64,000 nt of DNA from Pseudoalteromonas gelatinilytica (GTDB lineage Bacteria > Pseudomonadota > Gammaproteobacteria > Enterobacterales > Alteromonadaceae): contig NZ_LRRU01000022.1 in NCBI RefSeq assembly GCF_001641615.1, positions 248,001 through 312,000 on the forward strand. The letters run 5' to 3'. A program made the position numbers and the translations under genes. Below the pieces are notes generated by a model, which was not told the DNA's origin, ran no database searches, and saw only the letters and a list, made by a program, of their open reading frames with translations. Below are positions 36,660 to 44,504 of this stretch, piece after piece; within the stretch, counting starts at the first letter, position 1; every line of letters begins with the position of its first letter.

Positions 36660-36834
36660 CTGAAATTTAGAGTATTTTCCTATTTAATTTATTGTCTACT
36701 ATACTTTTATTTGGGGTTTTTTGTCGTATTTTTATACAAAAATACTAGTTTAATTAATGAGCATACACTCTATACTAGAGTAGTTGCTCTTTAATCTAAC
36801 ACCCCTCACTTCCTTTCGTAGTAGGCATTTATTT

Positions 36835-37998
36835 ATGGGCGCTTTTGCAGCAAAATTATTAAACGAAGATATGTCGATTGAGCGTTATGCTTGCCAATTT
36901 AAATCGTTACAGGTTGAGCAAGCATTTTTGCAAAGTAAATTCGTACAAGATAAAAAAATAGCTCAATTTCTTACCTGCTTGATTGCAGTAGTCACTTTTT
37001 TGGTGACATTCTTTGATAAGATGATCATTCAAGCGAGCTTTTGGCCCGATATTGCCCTGATCGGTAGAGCCGTTACTATATCAGTTTGTTTAATAAGCGC
37101 TTTTGGTTTAGGTTTTATAAAAACTCCAGGGCAGTTAAAACCCGTAATAGTCGTGTTTATGGTGTTTTTATTTTTGAATATCCAGTTCATGGTTGTCACC
37201 TATGAGCGAAATTATATTTTGCACATGTTTTTTGATGTGATCATTTTGATCACCTTTTACTTTTCAACATTGTTATCTTTGAAGTTATCTTTGTTTTTAG
37301 GTGTTGCTTACAGTGTCTTCGCTGTGATTGTTATTTACTCCTATAAAGATATATCCACTCACTCATTTTATGTGGTGATCTTAGCGCATGTGGCTGCAAA
37401 TTTAGCGGGGTTGATCATGGCAGCTCAAGAGCACACGATGCGCCGCGCACTATTTGTAAGAAATACTCAGCTTGCCCAGCTTGCCCATGAAATGAAAACC
37501 CAAGCCCTTAAAGATGCACTTACTCAGCTGCCCAATCGCCGTGCTTTTGATAATGCCTATGAAGAATATCAGCGGTTGGCTAAGCAACAGCAAGGTGAGG
37601 CAAAACAAGTGTGTGTTATTCTGGCTGATATTGATTATTTTAAACGTGTGAATGATACCCATGGCCACGAGGTGGGGGATGTCGTGTTACAACGTTTTTC
37701 TGCTTTTTTAACTCACTCACTACGTACATCTGATGACGTTTATCGTTTTGGCGGAGAAGAGTTTGTTATTGTGCTGCCACTATGCTCTGTGCCTGATGCA
37801 ACGGTTATTATCAATAGTATGATTTCACGATTGAATAGTGAAGTGTGCGAGGTTGGTGAGTTGTCTTTACCAATTCGCGCCAGCTTTGGTTTAACTGTGA
37901 TGCAAGAAGAGCCTAAAAAATCAGTTATCTCACGGGCTGATGCTGCGCTTTATCAGGCGAAAGATGCAGGACGCAATCAATTAGTCATCAAACTATAG
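36835..37998 (+). CDS. Membrane-bound diguanylate cyclase (GGDEF)
   Basis: About 387 residues with five to six membrane helices in residues about 40-215, then a GGDEF domain (about 225-385). The active site is RFGGEEFVIVL (GGEEF, functional form), with DIDYFKRVNDTHGHEVGD as the metal and substrate part. No RxxD inhibitory site is obvious before the active site. The first ATG at 36835 is used; a later ATG at 36871 also fits and a TTG start at 36784 is less likely. First of three c-di-GMP-type genes in a row on the plus strand. Confidence 0.9.
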   Translation: MGAFAAKLLNEDMSIERYACQFKSLQVEQAFLQSKFVQDKKIAQFLTCLIAVVTFLVTFFDKMIIQASFWPDIALIGRAVTISVCLISAFGLGFIKTPGQLKPVIVVFMVFLFLNIQFMVVTYERNYILHMFFDVIILITFYFSTLLSLKLSLFLGVAYSVFAVIVIYSYKDISTHSFYVVILAHVAANLAGLIMAAQEHTMRRALFVRNTQLAQLAHEMKTQALKDALTQLPNRRAFDNAYEEYQRLAKQQQGEAKQVCVILADIDYFKRVNDTHGHEVGDVVLQRFSAFLTHSLRTSDDVYRFGGEEFVIVLPLCSVPDATVIINSMISRLNSEVCEVGELSLPIRASFGLTVMQEEPKKSVISRADAALYQAKDAGRNQLVIKL

Positions 37999-38103: not shown

Positions 38104-40545
38104 ATGCTATCACGCCATGATAAGGGCTATAAAATTTCAATCAGAGCCAGTGTTCTACTGGTATTCGCTCTCGCGAGTTTACTCACTGGCGTGGTGGCGA
38201 TTAGTCTGCATTATTATTTTAGTGAAAAACTGATACTACAAACTAAATCTGAGCAATTTAAGCAAACTAGCCAACAAATAGCTGATCACATCACCCGAAT
38301 CAATGAGCGAGCCGATAATACCTTGAGCGTGATGATCCACGACACGCGACTCTTTTCGAATAGCCAAGATAATAAAGGCATTTTACAGCATGTTTTGCTT
38401 GAAATTTTAACGCGCCATCCAGACTTTTATTCACTCATTCTTGGTCATGCTAATGGCGACTTATTGCAGGTTATTAATTTAAAAGGCTATGCAAAGCTTC
38501 CTCCATCGTTCCAACTTGATGAAGACGATCATTGGCTGGTTTACCAAATTACTGGGCAGGGCAGCGATCGTAAGCAAGTAACCACGTATTTAGGCGAGTC
38601 GCTCAACGTTCGTAAAAGAGACATTAAAGCGACAGATTACGACCCGCGCACCCGTGTTTGGTTTCAGGATGCAACCAGTACTTCGGTGACGAAAACCGAG
38701 CAGTACGTGTTTAACGTGTTTGATGTACCAGGTTATACCTACGCAATAAAGTCAGCGCAAACAGGCGATGTATTAGCGATTGATATTGCCAGTGCAAGCT
38801 TGAATCATTTTTTAACCGTGCAACAAACTAAAATGAAACACTTGGTTGAAAGTGAAATGTATGTATATCGGGGCAATGGCGAAATTATTGCAACCAGTAA
38901 AAATCAAAGCCATCAGCATACCTTTGATGATTTATCTCAGTTGATTAAATTGGATGAACAGCAATCAGGGCTTGCTAATAAAGCGCATCAATTTGGCAAA
39001 ATGCTGAGCGTCCATGAAAAGGGCATAGAAAAGTACATGTTTGTGCTGCCTTTGCCGCTCAGTAGCGATATGCAATCTGATGAAGTGGATTACTTCACCG
39101 TACTGGTATCTAAAGAAGATGTGTTAGCAGTAATTAAAGAAAAAATACGTATTTCAATTTTAGCGACGGGCTTATTTTTACTCTTGCTACTGCCCGTTTC
39201 TTGGTTTTTTGCCTCTTCAATCGTTAACCCAATACTGAAACTAGTGGGTGAAAATAAAAAAATTCAACAGCGCGATTACAATGAGGTTTCAACGCTTTCG
39301 AGCCATATTCTAGAAATTCATTATTTAGCTAGTTCAATGGTCGATATGAGTCGCTCCATTGAGCAACATGAAAATTCACAAAAAGCGCTGATGGAGTCTT
39401 TTGTCGAGCTCATTGCGCAAGCCATTGATGATAAATCACCGTACACGGCAGGGCATTGTGAGCGTGTGCCAGAGCTGGGTATTTGGCTTGCAGATGCGGC
39501 ATCTGGTTCAACCGATGAGGCGTTTTCTGAGTTTAGCTTTAAAACCCCGGATGAGCGACGCGAGTTTCGTTTAGCGGCGTGGTTACACGACTGCGGTAAA
39601 ATCACCACACCAGAACATATTGTTGATAAAGGCACTAAGCTTGAAACCATTTATAACCGCATTCACGAAGTACGCACCCGATTTGAAGTGCTGCTACGTG
39701 ATGCAAAAATTGCCTACTACGAGCAACTATTAGCGCACCCAGAGCAGCAATCTGTGCTTAAGCAAAAGCTTGAGCAACAAACAGAAAAGTTACACGCTGA
39801 TTTTAGCTTTATTGCCGCCTGTAATGTCGGTGGTGAGTTTATGGATGAAGCGCAGTTGTCTCGCTTACATGAGGTTGCTAGCATCAAGTGGCAGCGCTAT
39901 TTTGACGCAAGTTTAGGTTTATCGCCCCTTGAAGAAATGCGTATGGCTGATTTGAAAAATCAGCATTTACCTGTCGAAGAGTCACTCCTGAGCGATAAGC
40001 CAAGTGATTTAATTCCACACGAAAAAGCCGTTGAGTACCCAGAAAGTTTGGGCATTAATATGGCGATTCCAGAGTATAAATATAACCTTGGCGAAGTCTA
40101 TAACTTGTCGGTGGCGCGGGGCACGTTAACAGCGGAAGATCGGTTTAAGATCAATGAGCATGTGATCAGTACAATTCGTATGCTTGGGAGTGTGCCATTC
40201 CCTAAAGAGTTAGCGAGAGTTCCGCGTTATGCATCAACCCACCACGAAACCTTAAAAGGGACTGGCTATCCGCGAAAATTAACCGCTAAGCAGTTATCAA
40301 TACCTGAACGTGTGTTAGTACTTGCTGATATCTTCGAAGCATTAACCGCGGCAGATAGACCTTATAAAAAAGCAAAACCTTTGAGTGTTGCTGTTGATAT
40401 TTTAGCGAAAATGGTCGAAGACGATCACATTGACCGTGACGTATTTGAGCTCTTTTTAACTTCTGGCATTTACCTAAAATATGCAAAACAGTTTTTACAT
40501 GAGTCGCAAATCGATTCGGTCGATATTCAAAAATATCTAAGATAA
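38104..40545 (+). CDS. dCache-type receptor with HD-GYP-like phosphohydrolase domain
   Basis: An 813-residue protein with a membrane helix at about 15-37, a periplasmic sensor (about 40-340), a second helix at about 350-372, a HAMP-like linker and a cytoplasmic HD-GYP-type domain (about 430-800). The HD motif is AWLHDCGKITTPEHIVDKGT (HD at about 494). The GYP part is HHETLKGTGYP (about 713), where the usual D of HHExxDGxGYP is K. About 150 extra residues separate the HD and GYP parts. Likely a cyclic-dinucleotide phosphodiesterase, substrate open. An AAGGAG site lies before the ATG. A paralogue follows 122 bases later. Confidence 0.88.
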   Translation: MLSRHDKGYKISIRASVLLVFALASLLTGVVAISLHYYFSEKLILQTKSEQFKQTSQQIADHITRINERADNTLSVMIHDTRLFSNSQDNKGILQHVLLEILTRHPDFYSLILGHANGDLLQVINLKGYAKLPPSFQLDEDDHWLVYQITGQGSDRKQVTTYLGESLNVRKRDIKATDYDPRTRVWFQDATSTSVTKTEQYVFNVFDVPGYTYAIKSAQTGDVLAIDIASASLNHFLTVQQTKMKHLVESEMYVYRGNGEIIATSKNQSHQHTFDDLSQLIKLDEQQSGLANKAHQFGKMLSVHEKGIEKYMFVLPLPLSSDMQSDEVDYFTVLVSKEDVLAVIKEKIRISILATGLFLLLLLPVSWFFASSIVNPILKLVGENKKIQQRDYNEVSTLSSHILEIHYLASSMVDMSRSIEQHENSQKALMESFVELIAQAIDDKSPYTAGHCERVPELGIWLADAASGSTDEAFSEFSFKTPDERREFRLAAWLHDCGKITTPEHIVDKGTKLETIYNRIHEVRTRFEVLLRDAKIAYYEQLLAHPEQQSVLKQKLEQQTEKLHADFSFIAACNVGGEFMDEAQLSRLHEVASIKWQRYFDASLGLSPLEEMRMADLKNQHLPVEESLLSDKPSDLIPHEKAVEYPESLGINMAIPEYKYNLGEVYNLSVARGTLTAEDRFKINEHVISTIRMLGSVPFPKELARVPRYASTHHETLKGTGYPRKLTAKQLSIPERVLVLADIFEALTAADRPYKKAKPLSVAVDILAKMVEDDHIDRDVFELFLTSGIYLKYAKQFLHESQIDSVDIQKYLR

Positions 40546-40667
40546 TTATTTGCTTATGCTTTAGGCTAATATTGCAGTGTTTTTGTTTGTAATACAAAGT
40601 TATTGGTGTATACATATTATACAAGCTAATATTATTTACGAACAAAGCATTGCAAGGAGATGCATAA

Positions 40668-43600
40668 GTGCTGGTATCTGCTTTTCAAAAACTCAAACAA
40701 ACAATACGTTTCTCGATTCGTCTTACCGTTGTTGCGGTGTTCGTATTAGCCACCTCATTAACAGCCCTGATTGCAATTAGTCTGCAATATTATTTCAGTG
40801 AAAAAATGGCCTTAGAAGCCAGTGTTAAAAACTTTAATTTAGCCACTGGCTCTGTCGCTGATTACCTTACCGGTGTCAATGAAAAGTCGGAAAACACGCT
40901 AAGTGTAATGGTACAAAACAGTAGCCTTATCAGTGCCGACAGCGAAGATAAAAGTGAACTGAGAAATGTCATGAGTGAAATCATGCAGCTCAATCCATTG
41001 TTTTATGCCTTGTATGTTGGCTATGAAAATGGTGACTTTTATGAATTAATAAATTTAGAAAGTAGTGAAATAGTTCGTCAGCAGTTGCAAGCCATCGAAG
41101 CCGATCGCTGGGTCGTGATCCACATTACCGGCGAAGGGGCTGAGCGTGTTCAGCACACCCATTATTTTGATCAGCAATTTAATTTACGCATTTCTCAAAC
41201 TAAAGGTACCAGCTATGACCCCCGAGAGCGTTTGTGGTTTAAGCAAGCAAATTCTGCCCGAGTCAATAAAACCAAGCCGTATTTCTTTACCCACCTGCAA
41301 GCGCCCGGGCAAACCTATTCGATAAAGTCGGCAAGCGAAAACAGTGTCTTAGCGTTAGACGTTAGTTTGTCGAGCATCTCTGAATATTTAAGTAAACAGC
41401 AAAGTAAAATGAGCAGCCAGTATTTAAGTGAGCTGTACATATACAATAAAGAGGGTGAAATTGTTGCCTCTAATCAACAAAAAAATAGCTTACGTCTGCC
41501 AAGGCTTGAAAAATTGCCTCTGACTGAAGAGCAGCAAAGTGTATTGGCAAAGTATCCTTATTTAAGCGTATCAAACGAGACAAACTGGCCACCGATGGAT
41601 TTTAGTGTCGGCGGAAACCCCAAAGGCTATAGCATTGATTATATTAATGGTTTGGCTGAGTTGCTTGGAATTAAGGTGACCTTTATCAACGGTTTTACTT
41701 GGTCTGAGTTTTTAACGCAATTTGCAAAAAATGAAATAGACATTATTCAGCCTATATTTAAAACGCCTGCTAATGAGCCACTTGGTGTAATGAGTGAAAC
41801 CATGGCAAGGTTGCCGTTTAGCATAATTACTGCACAAGGCACCACACCGGTTGTCACCATGAAGCAGCTAGCGGGCAAACAGTTGGCGATAGGCGAGGGC
41901 TGGTCGGTGATTAACGTGATCAAAGAGCACTTTCCCGACATCGACATTGTTGAGCTACCAAGTACAAAAGCGGTACTTGATGCAGTTAGCCAAGGACGGG
42001 TCTTTGCAGGCTTAGATAACGAGGCGGTGTTCAAATACACCCAAAAGCAGTTTTTTATTGATGGCATTCAGTACAATCAGCTAGATACATATAGCCACGA
42101 CCTTTTACCCGATACCCTGCATTTATTATTTCACCCAGAAGATGAAGCGCTTAAAGACTTAATTGATATGGCAATAACACACCTGCCAAATTCGTACATT
42201 GCGGCACTCGAGCGTAAATGGTTAGGGAGCGATCCCAATCAGCAATCACAAGTGATTGGTACCGTGCCATATCCTGAGTTTTTAAGTTTAATCACAGATA
42301 AAACAAACTTTGCCCATTTACGTTTGATGACCCTAAATGGCATTGAAAAATATGTGTATATCACTCCGCTTTCAGAAGGGGGCAGTAATAGTGATTACTT
42401 AGCGATAGTGGTGCCGAAAGAAGGCGTTTTGAGCTCTACCCATGAAAAAATTAAGCTTTCTATTTTTATCACTGCCGCATGCTTAATTATGGTATTGCCG
42501 GTGTCATGGTTTTTTGCCTCACCCATCGTTGCACCTATTAAGACCTTAGAGGGCGAAAACTTAAAAATTAAACGTCGACAGTTTGATCAAGTATCTACAT
42601 TAAAAAGTAGTATTAAAGAAATCAATAACCTGGCTAGTTCCATGGTGCAAATGAGTCAATCTATTCAGCAGCATGAGCAAAAGCAGAAAGCCTTAATGGA
42701 GTCATTTATTGAGCTTATTGCACAGGCTATCGATGATAAATCGCCTTATACAGCAGGGCACTGCGAGCGGGTACCAGAGCTGGGCATTATGCTGGCCAAA
42801 GCGGCCTCAAACTCAAATGAACACGCTTTTAAAGAGTTTGCCTTTAAAAATAAAGACGAGCTAAGAGAATTTAGCCTAGCAGCTTGGCTACATGACTGCG
42901 GTAAAATCACCACCCCAGAGCATATCGTAGATAAAGGCACGAAGTTAGAAACCATTTATAACCGTATCCACGAAGTGCGTACACGGTTTGAAGTACTGTG
43001 GCGAGATGCAGAAATCGCTTATTTAAAAGCGTTGCAAAGCTCACCAGAAAAGCAACCTGAGCTTGAAGCTGAGCTTGGCAAACGCCAATCACAATTACGC
43101 AGTGATTTTTCGTTTATCGCAGCGTGCAATGTGGGTGGCGAGTTTATGGATGAAGCAAGTCTTGAGCGCTTAGAGGCACTCAGTAACATTACGTGGCAGC
43201 GACATTTTGACGATAAGATAGGGCTTTCGCCAGTGGAAGAGCTGCGAGTTCACAGCAACGATGAGCAACTGCCTGTGACTGAAAAGCTACTTTCTGATAA
43301 ACCTGAGCATTTGATTGCCCACGATAAACCAATACAGTATGACGAGCGCTTAGGAATTCAAGTTACTATTCCTGAGTATAAGTATAATCTTGGCGAGTTG
43401 TATAACTTACAAATTCAACGCGGTACATTAACAAACGAAGACCGCTTTAAAATCAATGAGCATATTATCAGCACTATTCGGATGCTCGATAACGTACCAT
43501 TTCCTGATGAATTAGCTCGTGTGCCTCGTTATGCCTCGACCCACCACGAAACACTCAAAGGCACAGGGTATCCACGTAAGTTGTCTGCGGATGATTTATC

Positions 43601-43844
43601 AATACCAGAGCGCGTGTTGGTGCTGGCTGATATCTTCGAAGCATTAACCGCAGCCGATAGACCATACAAAAAAGCCAAACCGCTGAGTGTTGCCATAGAT
43701 ATTTTAGCCAAGATGGTAGCCGATCAACATGTTGATGAAGATGTATTCAAATTGTTTTTAACTTCAGGTATTTACCTTGAATATGCAAAACGCTATTTAA
43801 ACCCAGCACAAATCGATGATGTTGATATCGCAAAATACCTGTAA
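40668..43844 (+). CDS. HD-GYP-like receptor with inserted periplasmic solute-binding domain
   Basis: A 1058-residue paralogue of the preceding protein: same N-terminal helix, same sensor, same C-terminal HD-GYP-type domain (HDCGK at about 741, HHETLKGTGYP at about 958). It differs by a solute-binding (SBP_bac_3) domain at residues about 285-520, starting LAKYPYLSVSNETNWPPMDF and ending ALERKWLGS, inserted in the periplasmic part. Such domains bind amino acids or other small molecules in BvgS/EvgS-type sensors. The GTG start has AAGGAG eight bases upstream. It probably controls c-di-GMP (or a related dinucleotide) by a ligand sensed outside the inner membrane. Confidence 0.88.
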   Translation: MLVSAFQKLKQTIRFSIRLTVVAVFVLATSLTALIAISLQYYFSEKMALEASVKNFNLATGSVADYLTGVNEKSENTLSVMVQNSSLISADSEDKSELRNVMSEIMQLNPLFYALYVGYENGDFYELINLESSEIVRQQLQAIEADRWVVIHITGEGAERVQHTHYFDQQFNLRISQTKGTSYDPRERLWFKQANSARVNKTKPYFFTHLQAPGQTYSIKSASENSVLALDVSLSSISEYLSKQQSKMSSQYLSELYIYNKEGEIVASNQQKNSLRLPRLEKLPLTEEQQSVLAKYPYLSVSNETNWPPMDFSVGGNPKGYSIDYINGLAELLGIKVTFINGFTWSEFLTQFAKNEIDIIQPIFKTPANEPLGVMSETMARLPFSIITAQGTTPVVTMKQLAGKQLAIGEGWSVINVIKEHFPDIDIVELPSTKAVLDAVSQGRVFAGLDNEAVFKYTQKQFFIDGIQYNQLDTYSHDLLPDTLHLLFHPEDEALKDLIDMAITHLPNSYIAALERKWLGSDPNQQSQVIGTVPYPEFLSLITDKTNFAHLRLMTLNGIEKYVYITPLSEGGSNSDYLAIVVPKEGVLSSTHEKIKLSIFITAACLIMVLPVSWFFASPIVAPIKTLEGENLKIKRRQFDQVSTLKSSIKEINNLASSMVQMSQSIQQHEQKQKALMESFIELIAQAIDDKSPYTAGHCERVPELGIMLAKAASNSNEHAFKEFAFKNKDELREFSLAAWLHDCGKITTPEHIVDKGTKLETIYNRIHEVRTRFEVLWRDAEIAYLKALQSSPEKQPELEAELGKRQSQLRSDFSFIAACNVGGEFMDEASLERLEALSNITWQRHFDDKIGLSPVEELRVHSNDEQLPVTEKLLSDKPEHLIAHDKPIQYDERLGIQVTIPEYKYNLGELYNLQIQRGTLTNEDRFKINEHIISTIRMLDNVPFPDELARVPRYASTHHETLKGTGYPRKLSADDLSIPERVLVLADIFEALTAADRPYKKAKPLSVAIDILAKMVADQHVDEDVFKLFLTSGIYLEYAKRYLNPAQIDDVDIAKYL

Positions 43845-43919: not shown

Positions 43920-44504
43920 ATGAATTCAAGCCGTATGCATCAGATTGCTGACTTAATCGCTATTTTTGAAAACACTTTTTATCAAAGCCATAACACGCGT
44001 TTGATAAAGGGTGATGATGAACCTATTTACCTACCTGCTGATGAGCAAACGCCTTATCACCAAATTGTGTTTGCCCATGGTTTTTATGCCAGCGCCTTAC
44101 ACGAAATTGCCCATTGGCTAGTGGCTGGAGAGGCGCGTCGGTTAAAAGAAGATTATGGCTATTGGTATTGCCCTGATGGCCGTGATAAGCACCAGCAAGC
44201 TGAATTTGAAGCGGTTGAAGTAAAGCCCCAAGCTATCGAATGGGCGCTCAGTACCGCAGCGGGTTTCGATTTTAATGTATCGGTAGATAATCTTAATGGC
44301 GAGCAAACCTGCCGATTTGATTTTCAAGCGCGGGTTCACCAGCAGGTGTTGAGCTTTTTAGCATCTGGCTTTAATCAGCGCACAACAGCACTGCTTAACG
44401 CATTGAGCGATTTTTATAATACCCCATGGCCATTAACGGCTGCACAGTTTACATGGCAGCGTGATTATCAGGACAACCCAGGAGCTTTATCTAATGCAGT
44501 TTAA
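43920..44504 (+). CDS. epmC: Elongation factor P hydroxylase EpmC
   Basis: A 194-residue protein (E. coli YfcM is 182) of the EF-P hydroxylase family, which hydroxylates the beta-lysyl-lysine residue of EF-P. The metal-binding helix ALHEIAHWLVAGEARR carries HEIAHW; upstream is QIVFAHGFYASALHE and downstream YWYCPDGRDKHQQAEFEAVE. EF-P itself and EpmA/EpmB are not in the window. EfpL at 15792 is not an expected substrate. It overlaps the NAD-kinase-like gene by 11 bases. Confidence 0.93.
   Translation: MNSSRMHQIADLIAIFENTFYQSHNTRLIKGDDEPIYLPADEQTPYHQIVFAHGFYASALHEIAHWLVAGEARRLKEDYGYWYCPDGRDKHQQAEFEAVEVKPQAIEWALSTAAGFDFNVSVDNLNGEQTCRFDFQARVHQQVLSFLASGFNQRTTALLNALSDFYNTPWPLTAAQFTWQRDYQDNPGALSNAV

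Follow-up and report, generated by a model that had tools for sequence, protein, structure and literature searches.

Tandem HD-GYP receptors in Pseudoalteromonas gelatinilytica: a predicted Venus flytrap nested in a Cache sensor and its apparent loss from the adjacent paralogue

Two receptor genes lie in tandem on the forward strand of contig NZ_LRRU01000022.1 of Pseudoalteromonas gelatinilytica, within a stretch of 64,000 nucleotides (positions 248,001 to 312,000) that was analyzed as a whole and is referred to here as the window. They encode P0001 (38104..40545; 813 aa) and P0002 (40668..43844; 1058 aa). We consider it likely, though well short of certain, that both are inner-membrane HD-GYP phosphodiesterase receptors with an amino-acid-type Cache sensor, P0002 carrying a Venus flytrap (VFT) domain nested in that sensor as a co-sensor and P0001 being its VFT-less paralogue. 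The results given here support the domain make-up, the retention of the motifs, the direction of the evolutionary change, and the constraint on the VFT.

RESULTS

Two tandem paralogues differ by a nested domain

P0001 consists of a first transmembrane helix (TM1), a double Cache sensor (residues about 41-336; 38224..39111), a second transmembrane helix (TM2), a helical linker, and an HD-GYP output domain (residues about 420-812; 39361..40539). P0002 follows the same order with its Cache divided: a first part (residues about 45-268; 40800..41471) holds the distal lobe and proximal-lobe strands 1-2, the SBP_bac_3 or VFT domain follows (residues about 283-523; 41514..42236), and a second part (residues about 551-583; 42318..42416) supplies proximal-lobe strands 3-5 ahead of TM2, the linker, and the HD-GYP domain (residues 666-1058; 42663..43841). 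All of these features are on the forward strand. The two proteins share 118 of 282 aligned residues across TM1 and the sensor. From where the periplasmic part ends to the C terminus, a stretch that includes TM2 and the HD-GYP domain, 354 of 506 are identical, and the similarity in both parts is far above chance. They are tandem paralogues. An earlier note on this DNA, made from its letters, was right to describe tandem HD-GYP receptors with one kind of output, and both open reading frames lie at the coordinates it gave.

P0002 is the longer protein by a net 245 residues. Pfam SBP_bac_3 matches its residues 300-520 with E 1.7e-15, scoring 57.4 bits where the cut-off is 26.4, and the predicted two-lobed fold of this region is closest to the periplasmic binding protein (PBP) domain of RmcA (7ejg; Z 27.4, 236 aligned residues, root mean square deviation [rmsd] 2.2, 22% identity), with BvgS VFT2 also found in the fold search (Z 25.8, 234 aligned, rmsd 2.6). 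Profile and fold together thus place the domain in the SBP_bac_3/PBP clan. The earlier note had assigned it to the second receptor only, and a search for a hidden copy in the first agrees: P0001 has no SBP_bac_3 match in Pfam at E up to 1, and its periplasmic part is predicted as a plain double Cache.

AlphaFold2 models were built from a 42-row alignment for P0002 (mean predicted local distance difference test score, pLDDT, 81.2) and a 31-row alignment for P0001 (mean pLDDT 77.8). The P0001 model has one double Cache in the periplasm, with distal-lobe strands from 108 to 229 and proximal-lobe strands at 250-255, 261-264, 300-305, 308-317, and 329-336, followed by TM2. In the P0002 model, proximal-lobe strands 255-259 and 264-268 are followed by the whole VFT, then by strands 551-556, 559-567, and 577-583 and TM2. 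This puts the VFT into the loop that joins strand 2 of the membrane-proximal Cache lobe to strand 3, and the site is the same in all 35 of the 35 VFT-bearing relatives compared ("long forms"), which have 212-215 residues between the same two columns. The P0001 sensor (residues 39-342) matches the PscC Cache (6mni; Z 18.9, 232 aligned, rmsd 3.3) and Tlp3 (6w3s; Z 16.6, 237 aligned, rmsd 3.8), which gives it the dCache_1 fold, a double PAS-like Cache between two TM helices; for P0002, where VFT matches fill the fold list, the Cache call is drawn from the P0001 model and from the strand order that the two proteins have in common.

Two details of the earlier note can be refined. It had located the extra block in the periplasmic region, which holds, and the models put it more exactly within the second Cache lobe. 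It had also described a clean insertion site. One block does differ, but P0002 residues about 524-556, a loop and a short helix (VPYPEF...), likewise have no clear counterpart in P0001, so the cut does not fall exactly at NGIEKYVY.

Both receptors keep an amino-acid-type Cache motif

The amino-acid motif of PctA (Y121, R126, W128, Y129, Y144, and D173, as given in PMC11245519 and PMC10104139; PMC9901441 describes the motif as well) aligns column by column with Y183, R188, W190, F191, Y205, and D231 of P0002 and with Y179, R184, W186, F187, Y201, and D227 of P0001. Both proteins therefore show the dCache_1AA pattern Y-x4-R-x-W-[YF]...Y...D. When Y or F is accepted at the first and fourth places, 41 of 49 long forms have the full motif [YF]-R-W-[YF]-Y-D, as do 10 of 12 forms without a VFT ("short forms"). 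Because both receptors keep the complete motif, one input is probably shared in kind. The earlier note's idea of different inputs thus stands in part: only P0002 has the VFT, but the Cache motif is complete in both.

Selection was estimated among seven Pseudoalteromonas genomes. The mean rate of nonsynonymous change (dN) in the Cache is 0.103 for the short receptor versus 0.016 for the corresponding part of the long receptor from the same genomes, and in the HD-GYP domain the difference is smaller, at 0.037 and 0.021. The sensor of the short receptor has changed fastest. For the short receptor, the ratio of nonsynonymous to synonymous change (dN/dS) has no value in three of four parts, where dS is saturated in some pair.

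The flytrap may have a changed ligand site and remains under constraint

P0002 has N369 and N451 at the VFT positions that align with an Arg and an Asp of RmcA, residues which we take to contact the alpha-carboxylate and the alpha-amino group of an amino acid, respectively; the canonical amino-acid-binding residues of SBP_bac_3 domains are thus replaced. Position 369, an Arg in RmcA and BvgS, is occupied among the 49 long forms by Asn (37), Arg (8), Gly (2), Lys (1), or Phe (1), while position 451 is Asp in 1 of 49 and mostly Ser or Asn. Fourteen more distant rows added later have Asn in 6 and Arg in 5 at position 369, so the count of 37 leans on the genus. Several early-branching long forms keep the Arg, so the change to Asn probably arose within the family. 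The earlier note had suggested measuring the binding of amino acids to the isolated domain; such an assay would be aimed at a module in which both canonical residues are exchanged. A separate idea, that the Cache motif and the VFT Arg trade off strictly against each other, came from the first 35 long forms, where the three with the Arg all lacked the Cache Asp, and was rejected when four loci (L082, L085, L154, and L159) proved to have both the Arg and the Cache Asp.

With its canonical residues gone, the VFT of P0002 could be a structural relic or a dimer scaffold that binds no ligand, leaving the Cache as the only sensor; a ligand-free role of this kind has been argued for some BvgS-like VFTs. 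We regard this as possible but unlikely. The near absence of Asp at position 451 and the prevalence of Asn at position 369 speak for it, the domain is close to the VFTs of BvgS and EvgS, and receptors have survived its loss at least once and probably twice. A relic is harder to reconcile with the strong purifying selection on the domain, whose dN/dS of 0.051 is close to the 0.034-0.046 of the rest of P0002 and indicates constraint. The stretch W-x-P-x-D-[FY] is conserved as well (W307 in 32/35, P309 in 35/35, and D311 in 32/35), the eight long forms with Arg still carry the canonical residue at that position, and the wide retention of Asn itself suggests a changed rather than an empty site.

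The HD-GYP output is predicted to be catalytic

Pfam HD_5 matches both window proteins (E 5.6e-42 and 1.8e-42), and each has the HD pair, HDxGK, the third His, HHE, GxGYP, and the late Asp of HD-GYP domains. In P0002 these include H698, H742, D743, K746, H932, H959, and H960, together with E961, G965, G967, Y968, P969, and D988, all of which are conserved in 58 of 58 rows of the alignment used for the tree described below.

The best solved HD-GYP match by sequence for both P0001 and P0002 is V-cGAP3 (5z7c), presumably the protein VCA0931, and the two outputs might accordingly act on its substrate, 3'3'-cyclic GMP-AMP (3'3'-cGAMP), instead of cyclic di-GMP (c-di-GMP). We think this improbable. 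By fold, the P0001 output lies nearer to c-di-GMP-bound DvhD (Z 19.2, 205 aligned, rmsd 3.8) and PA4781 (Z 19.0, 208 aligned, rmsd 2.8) than to V-cGAP3 (Z 14.1, 194 aligned), and a GGDEF diguanylate cyclase gene (36784..37998, forward strand; Pfam GGDEF E 5.5e-39, synteny) stands immediately upstream. According to PMC4212101, some Vibrio cholerae HD-GYP proteins whose motifs are conserved are active phosphodiesterases of c-di-GMP, but VCA0931 showed no c-di-GMP hydrolysis. For P0001 and P0002, hydrolysis of c-di-GMP seems the likelier activity.

More doubtful still is that the HD-GYP part serves as a switch that binds c-di-GMP and passes a signal out to the periplasm, rather than as an externally controlled enzyme. 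DvhD, which joins a dCache to an HD-GYP domain, ranks first among the credible fold matches of the output (the Z of 19.2 above), and PMC13090378 describes it as a c-di-GMP-dependent switch. Its alignment is gapped, however, at the HH pair of P0001, whereas all 58 rows here retain this pair along with the other listed residues.

Both outputs also contain about 187 residues between the HDxGK lysine and the third His (39598-40161 in the window, which encodes P0001 residues about 499-686, and the corresponding region in P0002), where solved HD-GYP domains have far fewer. In P0001 this insert includes two long predicted helices (509-544 and 546-575), and no Pfam model matches residues about 539-627.

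The short receptor appears to be a deletion derivative

Relatives scoring above 200 bits to the HD-GYP query, with those below 200 bits left out, were sorted by length before any tree was built, giving 35 long forms, 10 short forms, and 13 others. The resulting HD-GYP tree of 58 rows was rooted on the 13 others, all of them lacking an SBP_bac_3 match at E up to 0.1 (0/13). Nine of these outgroup rows have a weak Cache-type match (dCache_1 or MCP-like_PDC_1), six have a GAF match, and the Cache is absent from two (585 and 450 aa).

In the rooted tree the long forms are paraphyletic, and the short receptor is nested among them. The 10 short forms fall in two places: nine are in Pseudoalteromonas and adjoin the window's long form (join 99/95), and one, at locus L048, belongs to another family and is placed with a branch support of 93/91. 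Constraining all long forms to one clade was rejected (approximately unbiased test, p-AU 1.9e-5), and constraining the short forms to one clade was rejected less strongly (p-AU 0.013). When the tree is built from the sensor and TM2 columns, leaving out the VFT, the short forms are again split (p-AU 0.0098); this tree has no outgroup and is hand-rooted on three long forms, and it cannot alone tell gain from loss. The same picture emerges from a larger tree of 59 rows, 16 of them further rows that include two short forms of the second lineage, although this was a quick search only and left out 15 near-identical or fragmentary rows and locus L152 (207 bits, limit 250). As for the alignments, A2 used 30 of the 35 long forms, A5 used 28 of the 35, and A6 used 25 of 45, while A3 has 42 rows and A4 has 31.

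The nesting of the short receptor among paraphyletic long forms, together with the rejection of a single long clade, indicates that the first receptor lost its VFT and that the VFT is older than the duplication, the loss in the window's lineage being the firmer part. One gain and two losses make the simplest account, in which the second lineage probably lost its VFT independently. The earlier note had read the pair the other way around, with an SBP domain inserted into the second receptor; the rooted tree instead makes P0001 a deletion derivative. That the domain entered P0002 after the tandem duplication, creating different inputs to one output, fits the single clean block of net 245 residues but is very improbable, as 40 of the 295 genomes sampled from the order have receptors with a VFT at that very site, as do other families of the class, the short form of the window branches from within the long forms, and the long forms do not make one clade.

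Distribution and genomic neighborhood

Beyond the order, full-length Cache-VFT matches occur in 5 of 350 genomes of the class and in 9 of 349 genomes of the phylum, all of the latter in the same class; the order, class, and phylum samples overlap, and each contains the window's own genome. The open frames that hold these matches are 1028-1082 aa long, apart from one of 1440 aa in genome G264. An HD-GYP part follows the Cache-VFT at 30 of 30 fetched loci (L095-L099, L121-L143, L145, and L146) and in 11 of 11 further fetched long forms, of which L152 is at only 33% identity, and the possibility that the same sensor serves other outputs was accordingly rejected. Unfetched full-length matches were judged by frame length, and the one in G669 is cut by the contig end (L149). 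Sixteen loci matched by the VFT alone have no HD-GYP match within their stretch. Within the genus, the long form is present in 34 of 108 genomes, the short form in 10, and both in 8, where long forms were counted by open-frame length and the VFT was checked in part of them.

Some relatives are arranged differently. Genome G091, from another family of the order, has a tandem pair with a flytrap in both copies (L052:4880-8110 and L052:8254-11445). A 1418-aa member (L084:373-4629) has about 365 extra N-terminal residues before its Cache-VFT-HD-GYP part, and these residues show no clear Pfam domain. Genome G118 has three tandem HD-GYP receptors of the SBP-less kind (L076:1441-10294).

In the window, the receptor pair is flanked by the GGDEF gene on one side and on the other by a gene at 43920, which we take to be epmC-like. 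The GGDEF gene is found at the corresponding locus in all 10 of the 10 genomes that have the short form (in G055 by a match covering 61% of the gene, and in G058 as read from the named contig L040) and in the fetched stretch of none of the six genomes that carry the long receptor alone here (0/6); G006 and G507 have the GGDEF gene and the short form without a long form. This pattern suggests that the GGDEF gene and the short receptor constitute a cyclase-phosphodiesterase unit that is gained or lost together. The GGDEF gene upstream of the short receptor diverges quickly, at 66-95% identity. Promoter-like sites (13 versus a mean of 19.1) and terminator-like sites (8 versus 7.8) are no commoner than in shuffled sequence, and we thus make no claim of an operon.

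DISCUSSION

A proposed two-input receptor and its single-input paralogue

We infer the class of Cache ligand, the coupling through TM2, the substrate, and the activity in the following scheme. Both receptors would sense the periplasm through the double Cache, with the amino-acid motif in the distal lobe. The VFT of P0002 is nested in the proximal lobe, which leads into TM2, and Cache and VFT would most likely work in series: a ligand in the distal pocket and the opening or closing of the flytrap could both alter the proximal lobe, and this change would move TM2 and set the activity of the HD-GYP domain. Its substrate would be a cyclic dinucleotide, with c-di-GMP the most likely one. In this group the nested flytrap is most likely the older state, and P0001 is a duplicate that lost it by an in-frame deletion, after which its sensor diverged faster than that of P0002.

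Several observations weigh against this scheme. The predicted template modeling score (pTM) is 0.53 for the P0002 model and 0.49 for the P0001 model, so the relative placement of the domains is not established by the models, and Pfam dCache_1 stays below its curated 45 bits in both proteins (P0001, 21.5 bits; P0002, 12.1 bits). With a 3'3'-cGAMP enzyme as the closest solved sequence, c-di-GMP as the substrate is not settled. The starred branches of the 59-row tree require two changes in the long forms but a single one in the short forms, the L048 branch of the HD-GYP tree is not starred (93/91), and the L048 sensor branch is long; two separate losses are therefore less certain than one. Finally, the window's short form has no convincing deletion scar.

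The candidate for such a scar was KLDEQQSGLANK in P0001, which resembles the pre-VFT leader by eye. It was rejected: its best score was reached by 64 of 1,000 shuffles and its mean score by 4 of 1,000, and in two sister short forms the leader score was reached by 355 and 271 of 1,000. The resemblance of L048 to the trailer is significant (0 of 1,000 shuffles), but three relatives without an SBP domain match the trailer too (7, 8, and 13 of 300 shuffles), so the L048 trailer may be plain Cache sequence.

Whether the family amounts to a conserved receptor class of Gammaproteobacteria, in which a full VFT nested in the membrane-proximal lobe of an amino-acid-type Cache lets two ligand-binding folds gate one HD-GYP domain, we see as evenly balanced. 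In such a class, most VFTs (37/49) would no longer bind amino acids in the canonical way, whereas the Cache would still do so (motif complete in 41/49), and natural deletion of the VFT, probably twice, would have left single-input receptors beside the two-input one or in its place. Two-sensor integration is hard to study, as deleting one domain usually breaks the protein. Here, natural removal of the VFT, probably on two occasions, has left outputs with every listed catalytic motif, and one VFT-less receptor adjoins an intact version in the same genome. The pair would thus be a natural experiment in the gain and loss of receptor inputs, and it allows a direct test of whether the flytrap tunes the Cache from inside the proximal lobe.

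Comparison with known systems

In mostly non-subscription literature, our search met with no HD-GYP protein described as having a VFT nested in its Cache, and the systems below each share some of these elements. RmcA of Pseudomonas aeruginosa, the best structural match of the VFT, also places a periplasmic SBP_bac_3 VFT on a c-di-GMP phosphodiesterase, and it senses L-arginine according to the review PMC8846402. It differs in that 7ejg is annotated as an EAL protein and its PBP domain has Arg and Asp where the long forms mostly have Asn and Ser/Asn. The histidine kinases BvgS and EvgS have VFTs of the same type and give the top profile matches (4q0c, 1.7e-41; 9ilw, 2.1e-33), but each has two matched VFT stretches and, by name, a kinase output, whereas P0002 has a single VFT, within the Cache, and an HD-GYP output.

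PctA, Tlp3, and Mlp24 share the Cache fold and the dCache_1AA motif. They are annotated chemoreceptors with solved sensor chains of about 237-290 residues, which leaves no room for a nested VFT. DvhD of Desulfovibrio vulgaris resembles the receptors in its periplasmic dCache and HD-GYP domain and differs in being described as a switch, in an accessible text (PMC13090378) that contains neither "SBP" nor "Venus", and in lacking the HH pair in its alignment to P0001. VC1295 of V. cholerae is a HAMP-containing HD-GYP enzyme with demonstrated c-di-GMP hydrolysis, and no SBP domain is mentioned in the accessible part of its source (PMC4212101); it is likened here by description, not by sequence.

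The nesting itself has a counterpart in the alpha2delta calcium-channel subunit, in which, as described in PMC9901441, a dCache_1 domain is split by an inserted VWA domain. That insert splits the amino-acid motif, whereas the motif in our receptors wholly precedes the insert. In P0002, moreover, the insert is itself a ligand-binding fold.

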